Source: Cyclostephanos tholiformis
Taxonomy: Eukaryota; Bacillariophyta; Thalassiosirophyceae; Thalassiosirales; Thalassiosiraceae
Length of the DNA: 15,170 bases
Direction of reading: 5' to 3'
NCBI GenBank assembly: GCA_036939975.1
Contig: JALLPB010001292.1
Coordinates: 1-15,170 of the forward strand
A model generated the notes under the pieces. It worked only from the letters and a program-made list of their open reading frames with translations, had not been told where the DNA came from and searched no databases. The position numbers and the translations under genes were made by a program. Below, in pieces: positions 3,313 through 15,170 of the stretch; position 1 is the stretch's first letter, and every line of letters begins with the position of its first letter.

Positions 3313-6300
3313 ATGAAAACGAAGAAAAGGGGGGGCGGAAGCAAGGAAGGCAAACCCATCCCGGCGGCAGGATTGCCCGCGGGATGGGTGACACGCGACA
3401 AGCCTCGAATCGTCAATGCGGTTAGTGGCAATAACGACAGCATGCGGAAATTTTGGTATTCCCCGATCCTCAACTTGCAATTCAGATCCCGTGAGTGTGC
3501 TCGGCCTCTTTTTTTTGTCGGCGAGTGAATACATGCCTTTGTGTTGAATGTTTATCCATGACTTAATTACCCAGTGACACTTCCGCGAATTGTAGTGCAA
3601 AGTGCCCGTCGATTCCTTCAATATTTGAAGAGGGCAAATGGGGACGAAGGAATCGCGATCAACGAGTTTCGCCAAAATAGCGCAATTGATTCCGATCGAA
3701 GGGCCGGGAAGGGCTCAATCGCTGATGTGTTACTAGCTCCGGGGAAATCTCCCGAGGCAACGAAGCCGAGTCCGGTCGTCAATGTCGGCGATGTTGGTTA
3801 CACATTTCGCAAGGAGTTTCACACGGGATGGTACAACGGGACTGTCGTCGAAATTCGTCCACATGCCGGTAAGTGTGTAGATTCTTGCCTCCCTCCCACA
3901 CCCACTCAGCTCTCTTGCTCCGCGGTATGTATATGATTTTTTTCTCAAAACGGACGTGATGATTCATTGCTCTCACACAGCAGGTGGAAAAGATCGCCGA
4001 TGTGTCTACGAGGATGGCGATTGTGAAGACCTAAGTCTTATTGAATTGCAAAACCTTGCTATAATTGACCCGAACGTGATGAAGAAAAAGCCGAGCTCCG
4101 CGCCGAAAGAAACGACCAAGACCCCAAAAACAAACGATGCAGTGCACCTGCCATTGCCACGGAATGGAAGGGTGTATACAACGACTGAGGCATATACAGT
4201 CCTCTCTGCATTTCCAAAGTATACTCGCGAGCGCAAGCGCGCTATTAAATTTGCACACGAAAATGGCTATATTCCAAAAAGCGAGAGAAGTATCTATAAA
4301 ATTTTGGAAAAGGTTGAACGTGTAACTCCAGAATCAAACGATGCAGTACACCTACCGTTGCCACGGAATGGAAGAGTTTATACAAAAACTGAAGCATTTA
4401 TAGCCCTCTCTTCATTTCCAAAATATACTCGTGAGCGCAAGCTTGCCGTCAAAATGGCACATGAAAGTGGCTATGTTCCAATTAGCATGAGAAGTATCTA
4501 TAAATTTTTGGAAAAGTATGAACGCGGTGGAAAAATTGTCGAAACTCATTGGGGAGATAAATCGAATAATAACTCGTGGGGACGAAAATTTTCCGAGCTG
4601 AAAGAATACAAGAGGAAATATGGGTGAGAATGATAGAATCTAGTTAGTGGCTGATTTTATTCTCCTGTATGAAACTCTCAACCCCCTCCACTTTGCAGTC
4701 ATACGTCCGTACCTGTTAGCACCGATAAAAATCTCCATGACTGGGCAGCTAATCAACGGGAGTACTACGCCAGATTTCTTGATGCAAAAGGGAAGAAGCT
4801 CATCTCGCAGGAAAAAATTGACTTGTTGGTAAGTTCTCTCGTTGTTTTCTGATGCCAGAGTGCCTGCCGATTTGAACGTGTTGTCATTACTGAATTACTA
4901 ATATATCCACTCACTCACACGTTACACGTATGGTGCAGAAAAGTATTGGCTTTGAATTTCATGTGAAAAAAGGAAACACAGTCAAATCAGAAGCCACGGC
5001 CGTCCCCAAACAACGGACGTGCATGATGCCTTCAAGTCACGAAGAAGTGAATGAGTCTCGAAAAAGTAAAAGAGCCGTTAGACCGCCCCAAAAGGTCGAC
5101 GAGATATACAGCTATGAGCAAATGAAAAACTTGTATCGAAGAAAAAAATCGCATGAGGATGACCCATTGACCTCGCGGCATCAATCAAAAAAGGCTCGTA
5201 TAGATCCATCAACTCCAGGGGGACATATTCTTTCGGCTATAAATGATGACATTCCCATGGACAACGCTGCGGCATCAACACTTCATGTCGAGAATTCCGG
5301 AGATTTGCGCCCCGATGGAAGAAGTTTGTACGATTCTGATGACGACGACAGAGAATGGCTTGAGAGAGTGGCCGCGTCATTGGGAGCAGAAAAACGAGTG
5401 ACACCTCCATCCGCTCCAAACTTGAATAAATTACCAAGTCAAAACCATCCATCTCACACGAAATCAGACGTAGCCTCTCCATCTTCCTTAGTGACATGCC
5501 AAAGTAACATCAAAACTGGTAATTGTGATAATTATGCGATGAAACAGCCACCACAGTCCGTGCTTATCTCAAACATACAATCTGTTTCTCAAGACCCTGT
5601 GAGAAATGTACTGCTCAGTGAATACAAAGTAGGAAGTCGGTATGGAACCTACGTCATTAACAAGAATGACAAGCGGGGTAGGGTCGGGGAGGTCATTTTA
5701 GAAAATGGCGATTCCTGGGTTGAGGTTGCAATTGGTGGCACACTAAAAAAATATCATATTACACACCTCATCGTCGTGCCTTCAAAGCATTCCAAAGCTT
5801 CTGGATCCATGAATGCATGCAATGCATCCACAAAATCAAGTTCAAGTAAAAACATTCGCGCCAAATCATCAGCCAGTGAAAGAAAGCCACCATCCACTGA
5901 AAAAAAAAAACTTCCAAAGGTAACGAATGTTCCACCAAAAATCGAACTGAATGTTTCGAATGAAGAGATACTATTATCAAATGAAAAGATGATTCCGGCA
6001 TTTTCTGCTGATCACCTCTTTTGCTGGTTTTGTTATGTTTGTGACGCTGCCAATAATCCGGGTGCATCGGAATGCAATAAATGCAACGGAAGGAAAACTG
6101 ACAAATCCAAGAGATCTATCCTGCTTGGAATCGCAGAAAGTGCAATTATGGATGAGTCAAAAACAGTGGAGGAAGCAATAAGCTGCATTCCATATTCTGA
6201 TCGAGCGTCAATACCGAAGAAGCTCATCGAATACCTTCTTGAAGTCAAAAGTTTAGGGCCATCGAACGTTGAAATGTTTAGTTATGTGCCTAGGCCCATC

Positions 6301-9135
6301 ATCGAGACCTATTTTTATTGGATGTGTGGTTATTGCACAACACAAAACTCATACAAAAGGACAACATGCTCCGCTTGCCTACAAGGAAAAGGCTTGGCTG
6401 ATAGATCACCGCTATTGAAAATCGCCGAGGATGCTGCGATGAATAGCCAAACATCAGATGATGCACTTTTGCTTTTGCACCCTCACGAAAGAATGGTGAT
6501 CCCGAAAACCGTGATGGATGTACTTGTTACATGTGTATTCATCATAACAAGCCGGTATGGTCAGCAAAGGAGGTGCCGCAAGGCGAAAAAGGATGGGTTC
6601 GACTATTGCGAGGCACACTGTGATCCTCTCCTTCTTATCAGGCCACGGCTTGATGAAAAACAAAATTTTCAGGTGTGCAATGGGGTTGAATCTATTTTAA
6701 ATGACAATGAGCCGATTTCTCGTGGAAAAATTTCTATGATAAATGAGGTAATGCCTCCTTTGTTATCAACTATTCAATCATATCAAGTCAACAAGCTCAG
6801 ATGGACAATCAATAGCATCGAAGATTCTGTGCTATGTGGGGAATACACCTCTTTCCCCTTGGGCATGACTATACGAAAGTTCTTCACAAACTACGGATTT
6901 CACGATGGTAGGATCATTAAAGTTGTTCGCAAGATATGGGCCGACCGCGAAAGGAGAACAGATCGCCCTGTTCTTGTATATCGATGCATATAGTGAGTAT
7001 TTTTGCTTTGTGGATCCGTGTACATCAAGCATTCAATTTCAAAAATGGAAATTCAACGATGCCAGCTAACCGAATTCATTCTCTAAATTTTGTCTGAATA
7101 GTAATGATGGTGATGAAGAAGACTTCCTCCACCATGAAATTATTTCTTTGAGTCAACGTAAGGCAAAATGGCTATCGAATATCATTCCTCGTCAAAAATG
7201 TCTTGGTCACATCATTCTTTCTGATTTTTTCGCACAGTCTATGATAAACGCAATGTTCCTCCTGAAGCTCCACCTCACAAGCAAATCCCGCTGGGAGCAA
7301 TATATGAATCGCGAAGTGGCCATACTTTCAAAATTATTGGCCACAAGACACCACGTGGGTGTAATACAGATGAAGGGGGGATAGGTGAGGATAAGAAGGG
7401 GGAAACCTTTTACTCTGTCTTTTTTATCAAGTTCCTGCTGCTCAAATGCCTTCTTATATTGTACGGTTTTTCATCATCCATAGTTATGGTCAAATTTTGC
7501 CACTCATCAAAATGTATTGAACTTGAAATAGTGGAGCTACAAAAGGCTATTCTTCGAAAAGTTAGTGAGCTAATTTCCCCCTCAAGAAACTCTTCTCTTT
7601 CTTTATATTCAGACTCGAACGAAACAGCTACTGCGCCTGTTTTGGAATGGCCGATGCAATGCCAAAGCAAATCTGATGGGGAATCAGGTGATGAACGCAT
7701 TGAGATCTTCAACGGTTTTTCTCTTCATCAAAGGCGATACTTTGCTTCTTCTGATGATCATGTTGCTCAATTACTCACAACAAGCAATATAAATAACCCG
7801 AATGACATCCGATCTGGAGTTTCCGTAGGGATGTGGGATCCAGCATCTTCGTATGATCATTTGCTGTGGGACCCCTATGCTTCGACTGTGGTGAGTATTA
7901 CCAGCAATTTCTTCGTTATTCTACTTGTCGGGCCCAACTTCATGCTTCTTCTATAATCATTTAGTGTGAAATCTGTGACGTTAACAAAGATGACAATCAA
8001 GTTGTTATCTGCGATGCCTGCCACAAAGGCTTTCATACTTATTGCCTGAGACCAGTGATGGTAAACATTCCGCGTGGGGACTGGTGGTGCTCCGCCTGTT
8101 CTGGACGGTCAAAGGTGCATCTGTCATACTCCGAATTTAAGGCGAATTTGTCGAGTGATACTCGAGAGATTTTCCGATATTTCGGGTTGCCCTTCCACAG
8201 TCCTGCTGAATTCTTCAAAGTCCACTCTGATGCAATCAGCCTGTTTTCAGTGGACTCACAAGCAGCTATCAAGCAGTATGCAATAAGTCATCAAGTAGGA
8301 ACGAAACACGTTGTATTTGACGTGATGAATGTGAAGTTCATACGCTCACCTGAGAAGAATGACTGGCTCTTGCCTACACCTTTGTTGTCAGAAAAAGAAT
8401 ATGTAAGTCAATTTTCATCGTTCTCAATCGAACCATAATCAGCTGCCCCAAATAGAAACCTGGCTCCTATACTTCTTGCTCTTAACGTTCTACCAGATAT
8501 CATCGGTATTGAGTATGGTTGCTGCGATGAAGTACTGTGGCATGGAATCGAACTTAATGGAACTTGCATATACTGGGAATGCCACAGAAGAAATGAATGA
8601 TCCAAGCTTAGAGGTTGATGAGATCACAAAAATGAGCAAACGGAACATAGAGATTTATCGAGCCTTTCAGCATAATCTAAAGCAAGGCGTTCTCCCTCCA
8701 GTTGAGATCTTCCACGACGAGAATTTCGGCTTTTCTGTCAAGGCCTTAAGTTTCATGCGCAAGCATACGCTCATCGGGGGATATCTTGGCGAGGTAGTGA
8801 CGATGGAACAGAGTGGCCAGTCCAGTAGCGATAGTTTGATGGTGTTGCTTGATACCGGAAGTCCCAAAACGAGCTTGATCATCGATCCTACTCGTGCAGG
8901 TAACATCGCTCGGTTCCTCTCTGGCATCAACAACCGAAGCTTGGTGAGCAGGAGAAAGAGAAATGTGAGGACTAGACGATTCGTTATGGATGGAAAGATG
9001 CACGTTTGTTTGTTCACATGTAGACCTGTAGAGGCCGGCGAGATTCTTAACTACGATTACAACGCTGGGAATGAGGGAAAAGATATCGGTCAGTGGACCA
9101 AAACGGGATTTTATGACACGTCCAATTTCTTCTAA
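3313..9135 (+). CDS. ATXR5/6-like PHD-SET histone methyltransferase fused to MBD-like, Tudor-like, HTH-like, HA and RanBP2 zinc-finger modules
   Basis: Ten exons: 3313-3490, 3596-3868, 3984-4623, 4699-4828, 4939-6992, 7102-7157, 7238-7384, 7484-7890, 7965-8402, 8497-9135. All introns are GT-AG, all phases agree, and the product is about 1653 residues. Order by residue: MBD-like 20-80; Tudor-like 122-176; two 68-residue HTH-like units 200-335; HA 338-420; basic and acidic linker; Tudor-like 632-690; RanBP2 fingers 768-795 and 868-893, each with a helical tail; Cys/His cluster 940-970; Tudor-like 1040-1110 and 1130-1185; PHD 1296-1340; SET about 1509-1653. PHD, the PHD-SET spacer and SET all follow plant ATXR5/6, which monomethylate H3K27 in the nucleus. 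Plant ATXR5/6 are far shorter and lack the upstream modules. The start is the first ATG after an in-frame stop. A non-coding first exon or an alternative first exon is possible. Substrate and methyl-DNA binding are inferred. Confidence 0.86.
3370..3658 (+). other. Methyl-CpG-binding-like (MBD) domain, split by intron 1
   Basis: Residues about 20-80. Exon 1 gives GLPAGWVTRDKPR and then KFWYSPILNLQFRS. Exon 2 continues with SARRFLQYLKRANGDE. The pattern of LPxGW, an aromatic YSP turn, a FRS strand and a helix ending RFL is that of MBD domains. By eye, the Arg of DKPR and the Arg of FRS occupy the places of the two DNA-contacting arginines of MeCP2 (R111 and R133). Whether it binds 5-methylcytosine cannot be told from sequence; some MBD-fold proteins do not. 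Confidence 0.68.
3491..3595 (+). other. Intron 1 with two in-frame acceptors
   Basis: The donor is GTGAGT at 3491. Two acceptors, CCCAG ending at 3574 and TGTAG ending at 3595, leave the same reading frame and differ by 21 nt (seven residues, TLPRIVV). The downstream acceptor joins FRS to LQSARRFLQYL and gives the compact MBD fold, so I chose it. The upstream one inserts seven residues in the middle of the domain. Confidence 0.6.
3777..4061 (+). other. First Tudor-like module (spans intron 2)
   Basis: Residues about 122-176: VGYTFRKEF, then GWYNGTVVEI, then after the intron RRCVYEDGDCEDLSLIEL. The strand order, with a WYNG turn and a final Y-x-DGD-x-EDL box, is that of the small Tudor or agenet-like domains common in stramenopile chromatin proteins. 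Such domains bind methylated lysine or arginine, or DNA. The ligand here is unknown. Confidence 0.55.
3978..3983 (+). other. NAGNAG tandem splice acceptor of intron 2
   Basis: The 3' end of intron 2 is CAGCAG. Either AG (ending 3980 or 3983) keeps the frame, so use of the first adds one alanine between the YNG strand and the EDGD strand of the Tudor-like module. The donor is GTAAGT at 3869. Confidence 0.7.
4132..4535 (+). repeat. Tandem duplication of a 68-codon helix-turn-helix-like unit
   Basis: Two copies in exact register with a period of 204 bp: unit 1 from 4132 and unit 2 from 4336. Both begin NDAVHLPLPRNGRVYT, continue TEA, then FPKYTRERK, HE(N/S)GY(I/V)P, and end RSIYK(I/F)LEK. The nucleotide copies are still clearly alike, so the duplication is fairly recent. 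The helical pattern, with basic residues and a closing SIYK-LEK helix, resembles small HTH (psq or CENP-B type) DNA-binding units, but I cannot name the family with confidence. Confidence 0.75.
4540..4980 (+). other. Helicase-associated (HA) domain across exons 3-5
   Basis: Residues about 338-420 spliced from three exons: WGRKFSELKEYKRKYGHTSVP, then LHDWAANQREYYAR, then LISQEKIDLLKSIGFEF. The spacing W...L..YK..YGH..VP...L..W...QR......L...I..L..IGF is the HA domain signature (Pfam PF03457 from memory), abundant in diatoms. It is a three-helix, probably DNA-binding unit. Junctions at 4623/4699 and 4828/4939 restore the motif exactly, which supports both introns. Confidence 0.8.
5608..5790 (+). 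other. Second Tudor-like stretch in exon 5
   Basis: Residues about 632-690: YKVGSRYGTYV, KRGRVGEVILENGDSWVEV, then KKYHITHLIVV. The alternation of short strands and the place of the GEV and WVEV strands suggest a small beta-barrel of Tudor or SH3-like type. It lacks the EDGDxEDL ending seen in the other modules, so this is the weakest of the four. It is preceded by an acidic patch (DSDDDDREW) and basic clusters (KSKRAVRPPQK, RRKK) that could be nuclear localisation signals. Confidence 0.4.
6016..6540 (+). repeat. Duplicated module: RanBP2-type zinc finger plus helical tail
   Basis: Finger 1 (about 6022-6096) is WFCYVC, three residues, N, then C-x2-C (ECNKC). Finger 2 (about 6319-6393) is WMCGYC, three residues, N, then TCSAC. 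Both fit W-x-C-x2-C-x3-N-x6-C-x2-C of RanBP2 fingers, which bind RNA or ubiquitin. Each is followed by a matching helical segment: S-I-L-L-G-I-A-E-S-A-I-M against S-P-L-L-K-I-A-E-D-A-A-M, then IPKKLIEYLLE against IPKTVMDVLVT. The whole unit of roughly 95 residues is therefore an internal duplication, older than the HTH-like one because only key residues are kept. Confidence 0.78.
6528..6622 (+). other. Third Cys/His cluster after the RanBP2 modules
   Basis: Residues about 940-970 read C...GQQRRCRKAKKDGFDYCEAHC. The C-x10-C-x2-H spacing with a preceding basic run recalls the C3H-type fingers of KANL2 and INO80D, but only part of that pattern is visible. It is a probable metal site of unassigned family. 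Confidence 0.4.
6832..7157 (+). other. Third Tudor-like module (exons 5-6)
   Basis: Residues about 1040-1110: PLGMTIRKFFTNYGFHDGRI, a spacer, then PVLVYRCIYNDGDEEDFLHHEI. The last box is the same Y-x-DGD-x-ED ending as in the first module, rebuilt exactly by removing the intron 6993-7101 (GTGAGT...TAG), which supports that small 56-bp exon. Confidence 0.55.
7285..7565 (+). other. Fourth Tudor-like module (exons 7-8)
   Basis: Residues about 1130-1185: IPLGAIYESRSGHTFKIIGHK, then across intron 7 GVMVKFCHSSKCIELEIVELQ. It has the strand pattern of a Tudor-like barrel with a divergent last box. The donor GTGAGG at 7385 and acceptor TAG at 7483 keep the frame. Confidence 0.4.
7965..8100 (+). other. 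PHD finger, ATXR5/6 type
   Basis: Exon 9 opens exactly with the first Cys. C4HC3 ligands run CEIC, CDAC, H (KGFHTYC) and CSAC, with DWWCSAC giving the usual aromatic before the last Cys pair. KGFHTYCLRP followed by a (V/I)P(R/K)G turn matches the PHD finger of plant ATXR5/6, which reads the unmodified H3 tail. All eight zinc ligands are present. Confidence 0.9.
8690..9135 (+). other. SET domain, ATXR5/6 type, no post-SET
   Basis: Residues about 1509-1653: PPVEIFHDENFGFSVKA, GGYLGEVV, a DSLMVLL strand, NIARFLSGINN, and ILNYDYNAG with the conserved catalytic-pocket tyrosine. NIARFxSGINN in place of the common RFxNHSC motif, and the absence of a Cys-rich post-SET, are the ATXR5/6 hallmarks. The spacer before it (SMVAAMKYCGME) also matches the plant proteins. 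Expected reaction: transfer of one methyl group from S-adenosylmethionine to H3K27. The key residues appear intact. Confidence 0.88.
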
Positions 9136-11314: not shown

Positions 11315-11335
11315 TGGTTCGCGCCAGCGTGGACG

Positions 11336-14300
11336 ATGGCATTTCAGATGTTAGCGTTCATGGCTGGGCCTACATTGGACACAGGACAACAAGTCACTTA
11401 CCTTTATTACTTCATCGCCCCTTACCTCTTCACTTTCCTATTCGACGCCCTCCTCCAGAAGGACCAACGCCAGCGTGCGTTGACGATCGCGGCTTTCGCA
11501 CGAGGGAGCCAATGGCAATGGCCCCCGAAGACCAGGCGCTCTCTCCCTGCGTTCCGGCGCCTCAAGCGAGCAAGGAAGCCAAGCGTCAGGTTCAGGATGA
11601 GCACGAACGACAAGAGCGAAATCTCGCCAACGATGCGGGCACATTTGCTCCCCATCGCTTCCTCCATTTTCAAAGTTGGTTGTCGCATTGAGGACTTCCT
11701 CCGCCGCCACCGGTTGAGGGAGATAATGGCCCCAGCACGCGTGAGGGAGCCACTGACGGCTTTCTCAGCCTCCTCAGGCGCCCCCACGTGCGCTCGCTCC
11801 GTCCGCTTCGATTCGGACTCCTATCCAATCGGCGTGGACTGCCACGCATCGCGCTGCATGGCCAACTCCCCGCACCTCTTCGAGGACCTGAAACTTGCCA
11901 AGGTGGGCGCGGTGACAGGCATAAACCAAGGGTTGGACATCCAGGGGGTAGGGACATTCAAGTTCAAGATTGATGACGACAACGGAAGAACACATGAGAT
12001 CAAGATCCCAAACTCTCTCTACTTGCCGGGTCTGAAGAAGTGCCTCCTGTCGCCCCAACATTGGGCGCAGGAGGCGGGAGACAATCATCCGTTGCCGAGA
12101 GGCACCCGAATGGAAAATGACGATGCACATTGTGTTTTACTTTGGGATCAAGGACGCTTTCGCAAGACAATCCCACACCATCCGGATTCGAACGTCCCGA
12201 TCATGCACTCCGCATCCTCTCTGCTGGCGTACCGCGCCTTCGCCACCACCTTCGAAGCAATGGAAGCGAACTACTTCCTCCGAGAGCATGTCCGTCAAGT
12301 ACCCGGCCTCAGCAAGCAAGACGAGAACCCCGAAGAGCAGGAATTCGTTGCCGAGGAGAACGTCAATTTCGACGGCGGAGAGAAGACAAACGTAAGTCAC
12401 GACGACGACACGGTCAAGACGTCGAACGCCTCCCCGCCTTCTGAGGGAGACAGCGTCGGCCAAGAACGAATGCAGGCACTCACCTTCGATCCCTCCCCGC
12501 CTCTCGAGGAGGAAGAGGAGGTTAGTTTTGCCGCCGCCGATGACCAAGCGGAGTTAATGCGATGGCACTATCGCCTGGGGCACTTGCCCTTCGCCAAGCT
12601 CAAGATGCTAGCCAAGAATGGAGAGATCCCTCGGCGCCTGGCCAAGGTCCCTCCTCCCAAGTGCGCTGGCTGCCTTTTTGGAGCTATGACTAAGGTGCCT
12701 TGGCGCGGAAGAGAATCGAAGTCAACGCACGAGATCTTCGTGGCAACAAAACCCGGAGAATGCGTGAGCGTCGACCACATGATATCGACGCAGCAAGGTT
12801 TCTTCGCTCAAATGAAGGGAAAGCTCACTCGCAAGCGTTACCGCGCAGCCTCCATCTTCGTGGATCATTTCTCCCGCCTCCGCTACGTCCATCTGATGCA
12901 GGACCTCTCGTCGGACGAGACCATCAAGGCAAAATTGGCATTCGAACGCTTCGCTGCCGAGCACGGCGTCACCATCAAGCACTACCATTGTGATAACGGC
13001 AGGTTCGCGGACAACGCTTTCAAGCTGTCATGCGAACAGGAACGACAGCAGCTTACCTTCTGTGGTGTCAACGCCCACTTCCAAAATGGAATTGCGGAGC
13101 GCGCGATCCGAGACCTATCGGAAAGCGCGCGAAAGCAGCTCCTTCACGCGAGACACCGATGGCCTGCGGCGGTGCACGTGGCCCTGTGGCCATACGCCCT
13201 CCGCAGCGCTGCCATGCTTCACAATAGCCTGCCGACGCTCCCAGACGGGACATCGAGACTCGAGCTCTTCAGCTCAATCAGAGTTGGCCTGAAAATGGCA
13301 CACAATCACACTTTTGCTTGCCCCGTGTTCGCTCTGCAAAACGAGCTAGCAGCAGGCAATTCTGTTCCCAAGTGGTCCCCAAGGGCAAGATTGGGCCTTA
13401 ATTTGGGTCCGAGTCCGATGCACGCGAGAAACGTGTACCTCGTGCTCAATTTGAGCACCGGGCTTGTTTCTCCACAATACCACTGCAAGTTCGATGATTT
13501 CTTCGAAACTACCAAGTATGGCGCTCCTGATGTTGCAGTTTCACGTACTTGGCAAATGTTAGCTGGTTTTGAGCGAGTGACATCTGCTGAATCTAGGAAA
13601 ACAAGACCAACTTCGGCACAGAATGAGACACCACATGAGACCAGTGTTCCTTCGGCACAGAATGACCTTCCCCACAGTGTCACAAGCCCCCAGGACGAGG
13701 CGACAAGTAGTCAGGGTTCTCACACGAATGAGGGAGCTCCTCAAGCAAGCGCTGAGACCCCGCCAGATTGGATCAGCAGTAGGACAAGATCTCGGACTTT
13801 GGCTAGAAGAATGGCCGACTCAGTCTCTCGACAAGATTTCTTTGGCAATGCCCACATGCATTACATGGCCTCTCAAGCAGCTCTCGAAGGCACTGAAGAG
13901 GACCTGTTTCATGACACGCACCTGGAATTACAAGAACGAATGGGCAATCCAGTGGCTTTTCACGCCGAAATGATGGGGGACATCATGTACCTTCACCAAG
14001 CCCTTCAGCAAGATGACGCATCCGAATTCGTGAAGGCAGTTGTGCAGGAAATCAACGGACACGTGGAGAATGAACACTGGGCCCTAGTCAAGAGAGACAC
14101 TGTCCCTGAAGACGCCCAGATCGTACCATCGGTTTGGTCCCTACGACGCAAGCGCAACCTCACTACAAATGCCATCACCAAGCACAAGGCAAGGCTGAAT
14201 CTACATGGTGGCAAGCAGATATACGGGATGAACTATTACGAGACATACGCCCCAGTGGTGACATGGTTTGCCATAAGGTTGATGATCATCTTTGCCATCA

Positions 14301-15170
14301 TCTTCCGCTGGTCCCTCAGACAGGTCGACTTCGTCATGGCATACCCACAAGCTCCGATCGAGATGGACATCTACATGGAACTGCCTCAGGGAATCGAGAC
14401 CGCAAAGGGAAACTCCAAGGACCACGTTCTCAAGCTGCTCAAGAACATCTACGGTCAGAAGCAAGCAGGAAGAGTGTGGAACGAGTACCTGGTGGACAAG
14501 TTGAGGTCAATCGGCTTCAATCAATCCCTAGTCGATGACTGTGTGTTCTACCGAAACGACACTATCTTCATGGTTTACGTGGATGATGGAATTTTCGTTG
14601 GTTCCAATGACGATCAGCTACGAGAGGCCATCAGGGATCTGAGGGAGCTCAAGCTCAAGATTGAGGATCAGGGCCATCCTGCAGACTATGTTGGTGTAAA
14701 TATCCGCAAGGCCAAGGACGGTTCCTATGAATTCACTCAAAGGGCTCTAATTGACTCTATCATCAAGGATGTAGGTGTTACAGACTCCAAGTCCAAGCCA
14801 GTTCCAGCCAAGGTTTCTCTGCAGCTTCATGCTTTCAAGGACGATCTCCCATTTGATCAGCGCTTCGACTATCGCTCAGCTGTTGGCAAATTGAACTACC
14901 TCGCTCAAACTACCAGGCCGGACATTATGTATGCAACTCATCAAGTCGCCAAGTACTCTTCAGATCCAAGGCAAACCCATGGTGAAGCCGTAGAATATCT
15001 GGTGAGATACCTCAAGCGTACCAGAGACCTAGGACTCAGCTTCACGCCCAATCCAAGCAAAGGTTTCGAGTGCTACTGTGATGCAGACTTCTCCGGGAAT
15101 TGGAACAAGGCATTCGCTCCAGTGGACCCAAGCACAGCCAAGTCACGCAGTGGATGGATTATCTTCTATG
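11336..15170 (+). CDS. pol: Copia Pol polyprotein (protease, integrase, RT, RNase H), 3' end outside the window
   Basis: Open for 1278 codons with no stop; the end lies beyond the window. By residue from ATG 11336: aspartic protease with Asp168 in IGVDCHAS; integrase zinc site H411, H416, C443, C446; integrase triad D480 (SVDHM), D553 (HCDNG), E588 (NGIAERAI); a low-complexity Ser/Thr/Gln linker about 740-820; reverse transcriptase with D998 (QVDF) and YVDD 1081-1084; RNase H starting near D1249 (YCDADFSGNW). All catalytic residues I can place are present. Gag's last frame and pol share one reading frame, separated only by TGA 11312-11314, so the true product may begin upstream by readthrough; I start at the first ATG after that stop. 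G/C-ending codons dominate to about 13260 and then drop clearly. Confidence 0.9.
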   Translation, partial: MAFQMLAFMAGPTLDTGQQVTYLYYFIAPYLFTFLFDALLQKDQRQRALTIAAFARGSQWQWPPKTRRSLPAFRRLKRARKPSVRFRMSTNDKSEISPTMRAHLLPIASSIFKVGCRIEDFLRRHRLREIMAPARVREPLTAFSASSGAPTCARSVRFDSDSYPIGVDCHASRCMANSPHLFEDLKLAKVGAVTGINQGLDIQGVGTFKFKIDDDNGRTHEIKIPNSLYLPGLKKCLLSPQHWAQEAGDNHPLPRGTRMENDDAHCVLLWDQGRFRKTIPHHPDSNVPIMHSASSLLAYRAFATTFEAMEANYFLREHVRQVPGLSKQDENPEEQEFVAEENVNFDGGEKTNVSHDDDTVKTSNASPPSEGDSVGQERMQALTFDPSPPLEEEEEVSFAAADDQAELMRWHYRLGHLPFAKLKMLAKNGEIPRRLAKVPPPKCAGCLFGAMTKVPWRGRESKSTHEIFVATKPGECVSVDHMISTQQGFFAQMKGKLTRKRYRAASIFVDHFSRLRYVHLMQDLSSDETIKAKLAFERFAAEHGVTIKHYHCDNGRFADNAFKLSCEQERQQLTFCGVNAHFQNGIAERAIRDLSESARKQLLHARHRWPAAVHVALWPYALRSAAMLHNSLPTLPDGTSRLELFSSIRVGLKMAHNHTFACPVFALQNELAAGNSVPKWSPRARLGLNLGPSPMHARNVYLVLNLSTGLVSPQYHCKFDDFFETTKYGAPDVAVSRTWQMLAGFERVTSAESRKTRPTSAQNETPHETSVPSAQNDLPHSVTSPQDEATSSQGSHTNEGAPQASAETPPDWISSRTRSRTLARRMADSVSRQDFFGNAHMHYMASQAALEGTEEDLFHDTHLELQERMGNPVAFHAEMMGDIMYLHQALQQDDASEFVKAVVQEINGHVENEHWALVKRDTVPEDAQIVPSVWSLRRKRNLTTNAITKHKARLNLHGGKQIYGMNYYETYAPVVTWFAIRLMIIFAIIFRWSLRQVDFVMAYPQAPIEMDIYMELPQGIETAKGNSKDHVLKLLKNIYGQKQAGRVWNEYLVDKLRSIGFNQSLVDDCVFYRNDTIFMVYVDDGIFVGSNDDQLREAIRDLRELKLKIEDQGHPADYVGVNIRKAKDGSYEFTQRALIDSIIKDVGVTDSKSKPVPAKVSLQLHAFKDDLPFDQRFDYRSAVGKLNYLAQTTRPDIMYATHQVAKYSSDPRQTHGEAVEYLVRYLKRTRDLGLSFTPNPSKGFECYCDADFSGNWNKAFAPVDPSTAKSRSGWIIFY

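Follow-up and report, generated by a model that had tools for sequence, protein, structure and literature searches.

Does the DNA between positions 3313 and 9135 of this stretch encode one protein that couples a histone methyltransferase of the ATXR5/6 type with an extended row of modules for reading chromatin and DNA, and, if so, what might such a protein do? The stretch, hereafter the window, comprises 15,170 nucleotides (nt) from the 25-Mb assembly (G000) of the diatom Cyclostephanos tholiformis, in which it lies on contig C1254. An initial annotation had proposed such a chain from ten exons with agreeing phases, and had pictured it as a self-contained silencing machine that reads methylated DNA and histones and writes H3K27 methylation. 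As judged from sequence comparisons, the region is probably a single nuclear gene, its product being a large, ATXR5/6-related histone methyltransferase that would be directed to silent chromatin by its reader modules. The modules do lie on one predicted chain; the silencing machine itself is still conjecture.

A single reading frame runs on the forward strand from the ATG at 3313 to the TAA at 9135 across ten exons and nine GT-AG introns of 74–112 nt, with phases that agree as proposed and a spliced product of 1654 amino acids (aa). When hand-chosen donors were combined with nearby acceptors and intron retention was allowed, 24 splice combinations were open through to 9135, half of them (12) retaining intron 7, the length of which is a multiple of three. 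The choice among these rests on ungapped alignment to P0001, a relative from Stephanodiscus triporus, which is obtained with intron ends at 3595 (intron 1), 3980 (intron 2) and 8496 (intron 9) and with intron 7 removed. We rejected an exon 2 start at 3575, which adds seven residues found in neither P0001 nor another relative, P0010, and likewise retention of intron 7, as the retained segment is not in P0001. Searched against the whole genome, the SET exon matches only the gene's own place (E-values up to 0.001).

The full-length protein retrieved 22 matches, 16 of which belong to the same family, the other six being PHD-containing proteins, mostly from animals. P0001, an NCBI gene model that bears the name hypothetical protein, shares 71% identity with the query across 79% of the latter; such homology, together with the 16 family matches, excludes a chance arrangement. 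Seven complete relatives (P0001, P0002, P0008, P0009, P0011, P0012 and P0013) hold a single chain from the first Tudor domain to SET: P0001 spans the entire range from the MBD (methyl-CpG-binding domain) to SET, whereas P0002 (an MMETSP label with the Thalassiosira punctigera taxid) and P0008 (an MMETSP transcript labelled complete) are transcript-derived and cover Tudor 1 to SET. A 5240-base contig is given for P0010 and likewise for P0025, and the two proteins complement each other around intron 5, so that they probably stem from a single gene. The arrangement largely recurs in other diatoms, with a reduced form in a related alga, Triparma. Where the complete core is carried by a named organism, this belongs to the Thalassiosirales, and P0080 of Stephanopyxis turris displays Tudor 2, PHD and SET by eye. 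The initial annotation knew of no described protein with this module order: the titles and abstract openings that we searched contain no description of the architecture, but the order itself is found in P0001 without the helix-turn-helix (HTH)-like element and in P0010 plus P0025 with one copy of it.

ATXR5 provides the best solved match both to the PHD finger (1.1e-12, others close behind) and, by sequence as well as by fold, to nSET-SET, with SET scoring 28.1 bits in Pfam, over the cut-off. Thus, as proposed, the sequence places nSET-SET in the ATXR5/6 type, with the PHD N-terminal to SET. As in plant ATXR5 and ATXR6, the H3.1K27 monomethyltransferases, the PHD is followed by nSET-SET, and the genome has an A31-type H3; in contrast to them, about 1290 residues with Tudor, zinc-finger, MBD-like and HA (helicase-associated) modules precede the PHD, and the strict consensus of the PCNA-interacting peptide (PIP) is not found. 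The test used a strict pattern, which degenerate PIP motifs would escape, and it found the consensus neither in the window protein nor in the 149 proteins fetched, a set that also contained fragments and six proteins from outside the family. According to a review, the heterochromatin role of plant ATXR5/6 requires PCNA binding via the PIP motif (PMC9409234). Since the strict consensus of this defining motif is absent, we class the gene as ATXR5/6-related rather than as ATXR5/6. No protein named plant ATXR5/6 occurs among the matches listed in two of the protein searches (120 of 153 in one), and in our midpoint-rooted tree, where a single long-branched PDB fragment represents the plants, the order in which the plant, the ciliate-like and the diatom group branch is uncertain.

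The nSET-SET class is shared with ciliate TXR1-type PHD-SET proteins, although the ciliate label of the fetched TXR1-type rows is our inference. Those of the ciliate-like PHD-bearing proteins that were examined in full measure about 460–530 aa and have zinc fingers only, whereas the window protein is far longer and carries readers; most examined ciliate-like proteins show a Q-less PIP-like stretch, T-K-I-S-D-F/Y-F. SETDB1, an animal H3K9 methyltransferase with MBD, Tudor and SET on one chain, embodies the same idea of DNA-reader-like, Tudor and SET modules in a single protein, but the SET type here is unlike its class: H3K9 SETs score far below ATXR5, SETDB1 itself not being among the rows listed. 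As a separate observation, a metagenomic protein of 621 aa (P0073) combines an ATXR5/6-type SET with an N-terminal part that looks recombinase-like by eye.

The reader and DNA-binding modules differ in how well they can be identified (Table 1). The MBD-like module is well supported, the assignment surviving by profile comparison though sub-threshold in Pfam: PF01429 (cut-off 21 bits) has no match listed for the window protein and reaches 12.8 bits in P0001 and 19.3 bits in P0010, while a PDB search with the single segment returned MBD proteins in five of six rows (best 0.017) and a three-sequence profile did so in 15 of 18 chains at E-values up to 1 (best 3.1e-7), the other three being NEDD4-like. 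With the structure model of P0010, a Foldseek search placed AtMBD5 at rank 3 (probability 0.99 but E 0.19) and gave no row at E up to 0.001; the models have a mean predicted local distance difference test score (pLDDT) of 55.8, and confident stretches only were used. Compared with plant MBD5/MBD6 and animal MBD2/3, the module thus matches the MBD core by profile but changes two aligned positions, an aspartate and a tyrosine, that we take to be methyl-CpG contacts. The two residues are D and Y in MBD6 and in P0010, R and Y in Stephanodiscus P0001, D and F in MBD3, a weak methyl-CpG binder, and R and F in the window.

Tudor 1, also found in relatives, and HA both exceed their Pfam cut-offs, as the initial annotation would lead one to expect. 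For its RanBP2 fingers the C4 pattern stands, being kept in six of the seven complete relatives at finger a (P0012 is one residue shorter) and in all seven at finger b, but Pfam scores fall short, that of Triparma P0016 being 25.4 bits against 27. The HTH assignment is uncertain: the element is a tandem repeat with no significant profile or sequence match (best E 0.68) and no further genomic match of its 200 nt at E up to 0.001, and its counterpart in P0010 has three predicted helices (pLDDT 63–69), likewise without a significant sequence match. To the earlier list we add a further SH3/Tudor-like barrel, the fold of which is similar to those of KOW and of the PHF1/PHF19 Tudors and favours neither, a C3H zinc element, at the position of which P0012 matches the CCCH model (21.7 bits against 20.9), and a second Tudor. 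AP2 domains seen by eye in P0006 and P0008 were dropped, as Pfam gave no match.

Which of these modules are old can be read from their identity and presence across the family. SET is the most conserved part of the protein: nSET-SET is identical at 184/199 positions in P0001, 137/199 in P0008, 114/198 in P0012 and still 97/189 in Triparma P0016. Tudor 1 follows with 51/61, 36/60, 35/57 and 20/44 in the same four proteins; P0016 has one Tudor, which Tudor 2 of the window also matches. The MBD-like segment is identical at 48/63 positions in P0001 and 25/61 in P0010, and neither it nor HA has a meaningful match in P0002, P0008, P0012 or P0016. Because of these patterns, the Tudor, zinc-finger, PHD and SET series is, at the sequence level, the conserved core, with MBD and HA as a restricted block.

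We advance the following mechanism. The catalytic end, which groups with the ATXR5/6 enzymes of plants and the TXR1 type of ciliates, would most likely monomethylate H3K27 on H3 with A31. In the diatom line, probably before the diatom/bolidophyte split, an end of this type would have acquired Tudor and zinc-finger modules, through which the enzyme might dock on nucleosomes, with DNA-binding candidates (MBD-like, HTH-like and HA) at the N-terminus in the window's and close lineages. Readers may thereby have taken over the targeting for which plant ATXR5/6 have a PCNA tether, and the enzyme would mark H3K27 over silent, transposon-rich chromatin. The genome has H3 genes of both the A31-T32 type (C706) and the T31-A32 type (C881, second exon), and it is this A31/T31 difference that plant ATXR5/6 read. 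Elsewhere in the genome, C339:66-458 holds a divergent H3-like frame with a KKPHRYRPGT core, an unusual N-terminus and an insertion.

Several observations weigh against this account. The N-terminal block is not general in the family, MBD and HA occurring together in two of its 16 members (P0001 and P0010), and the window's own MBD-like module is altered at both presumed contact positions (D to R, Y to F), so that reading of 5-methylcytosine by it is doubtful. Where the NH motif of SET has its histidine in plants (GINNH), the window has R and all seven complete relatives have R or K. The PHD-SET linker contains a Q-less PIP-like stretch, TREIFRYF, which by eye is not kept in P0001. The gene model P0097, with the prefix CCRYP that we take to mean Cyclotella cryptica, starts at nSET and codes for nSET-SET only; its quality string begins with 3867, presumably the length in nt of a 5' untranslated region, so a short isoform is possible. 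Finally, ciliate TXR1 is described in a review as lacking H3.1 preference (PMC9409234).

A rival reading overlaps with ours, and we give it a real, if minority, chance: the protein and its catalysis would be the same, but it would dock plainly on nucleosomes at or after replication, the N-terminal DNA-binding block being neutral decoration, gained and lost. This would agree with the restriction of MBD and HA to the window, P0001 and P0010, with the drift at the MBD contact positions and with the patchy HTH-like element (one copy each in P0010 and P0008, none in P0001); yet the identity of the MBD-like segment in P0001 and P0010 is above the expectation for a decaying stretch, and none of the seven complete relatives has lost Tudor 1 or either zinc finger, one finger merely being a residue shorter in P0012. 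We regard it as improbable that the protein is a scaffold reader with a catalytic end that is inactive, as in a pseudo-enzyme, or that methylates another residue. Replacement of the NH-motif histidine would allow this and makes enzyme activity less than certain, but that histidine varies among ciliate-like members too, the Y-D-Y-N motif is kept in all seven complete relatives, and SET is the most conserved part. Two adjacent genes fused by our exon model are highly improbable and were rejected, since in relatives the single-chain proteins, two of them transcript-derived, contradict any break in the region of exons 5 to 9, and the C-terminal parts seen alone in P0097 and many metagenome frames are also what intron-blind gene callers would give.

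The preferred reading, of a reader-targeted ATXR5/6-related enzyme, gains a wider setting from a DNMT5-like locus in the same genome (L053, on C558), where, as in the window, an MBD is followed by a PF21743 Tudor; that locus then continues into cytosine-methylase and SNF2 pieces, whereas the window gene continues into PHD-SET. The C558 MBD scores 22.9 bits in the genome search and 19.3 in the long frame (cut-off 21), and its Tudor 45.3 bits; SNF2 and helicase C are over their Pfam cut-offs, and the methylase pieces are sub-threshold, all in unjoined exons. Both the SNF2 piece (8.5e-14) and a methylase piece (1.3e-5) have 7r76 as their best solved match, labelled Rad8 in the search, which we take to be Cryptococcus Dnmt5. 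By eye, the locus also contains a Q-less PIP-like motif, I-K-A-F-F. Cytosine-methylase matches in the genome comprise one strong (C425) and two weaker ones (C446). The MBD is found at four places in the genome search, followed by a Tudor at C558 (by profile) and at C1118 (by eye). The MBD-Tudor pair common to both genes invites a tentative and rather unlikely idea: it might be a shared address label, homologous readers co-directing DNA and H3K27 methylation, with the histone enzyme freed from PCNA and the MBD of the window's lineage shifted from 5-methylcytosine to a different DNA state.

Table 1. Features of the gene, with positions in the window, and the DNMT5-like locus elsewhere in the genome (bits are Pfam scores)
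Feature	Position	Strand	Remarks
Exon 1	3313..3490	+	start codon; MBD-like module, first half
Exon 2	3596..3868	+	MBD-like module, second half; Tudor 1 start; acceptor by ungapped P0001 match
Exon 3	3981..4623	+	remainder of Tudor 1; HTH-like repeats; HA start
Exon 4	4699..4828	+	
Exon 5	4939..6992	+	
Exon 6	7102..7157	+	
Exon 7	7238..7384	+	beta-rich stretch, conserved among relatives
Exon 8	7484..7890	+	linker
Exon 9	7965..8402	+	PHD and PHD-SET linker
Exon 10	8497..9135	+	nSET-SET and stop codon
MBD-like module	3370..3633	+	aa 20-72; split by intron 1 (3491-3595)
Tudor 1 (PF21743, PTM/DIR17 type)	3796..4054	+	aa 127-175; split by intron 2 (3869-3980); 38.1 bits, cut-off 27.2
Two tandem HTH-like copies	4121..4524	+	200 nt, 83% identical
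HA domain (PF03457)	4571..4953	+	aa 348-413, spanning introns 3 and 4; 50.5 bits, cut-off 28.4
SH3-like barrel (Tudor/KOW-like)	5605..5784	+	aa 631-690
RanBP2-type zinc finger a	6025..6084	+	then helical stretch; Pfam sub-threshold
RanBP2-type zinc finger b	6319..6378	+	then helical stretch; PF00641, 15.8 bits, cut-off 27
C3H zinc element	6532..6618	+	aa 940-968; conserved Cys/His columns
Tudor 2	6862..7157	+	aa 1050-1112, ending in exon 6; 14.2 bits, cut-off 27.2
PHD finger	7965..8099	+	aa 1297-1341; 35.8 bits, cut-off 24
nSET-SET catalytic module	8551..9132	+	aa 1461-1654; SET profile 8728-9063
DNMT5-like locus (L053)	G000:C558:5600-14500		N-terminal MBD, PF21743 Tudor (PTM/DIR17), methylase pieces, SNF2, helicase C

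Two further MBD loci were noted: C1118:500-4000 (L054) combines an MBD with a CXXC zinc finger, each exceeding its Pfam cut-off, and by eye also shows AP2-like and Tudor-like stretches, and an open frame on C272 (L043) has an MBD with MYB-like, HSF-like and cysteine-rich CXC-like stretches by eye. Within the window, the methyltransferase gene is flanked by retroelements on both sides. A degraded copia-type element with a sub-threshold RVT_2 match at 1446-2378 (21.4 bits against 31.6) lies at 806-2872 on the minus strand and is enclosed by two direct repeats with blocks of 67–69 nt, 85–93% identical, that look like remains of long terminal repeats; a second copia-type element occupies 11315-15170 on the plus strand, with RVT_2, gag_pre-integrs and Pol_BBD in a 1285-aa frame running off the window.

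Two reviews term ATXR5/6 plant-specific (PMC8566409, PMC9409234), the second also naming TXR1 as the ciliate ortholog. The gene described here is a member of a conserved family that joins an ATXR5/6-type end to many chromatin- and DNA-binding modules. As the strict PIP consensus is absent, the location of the enzyme is predicted to depend on its readers rather than on replication forks, which could be tested by removing the gene in a transformable diatom. The family would offer a route to testing by what means these algae keep portions of the genome silent.
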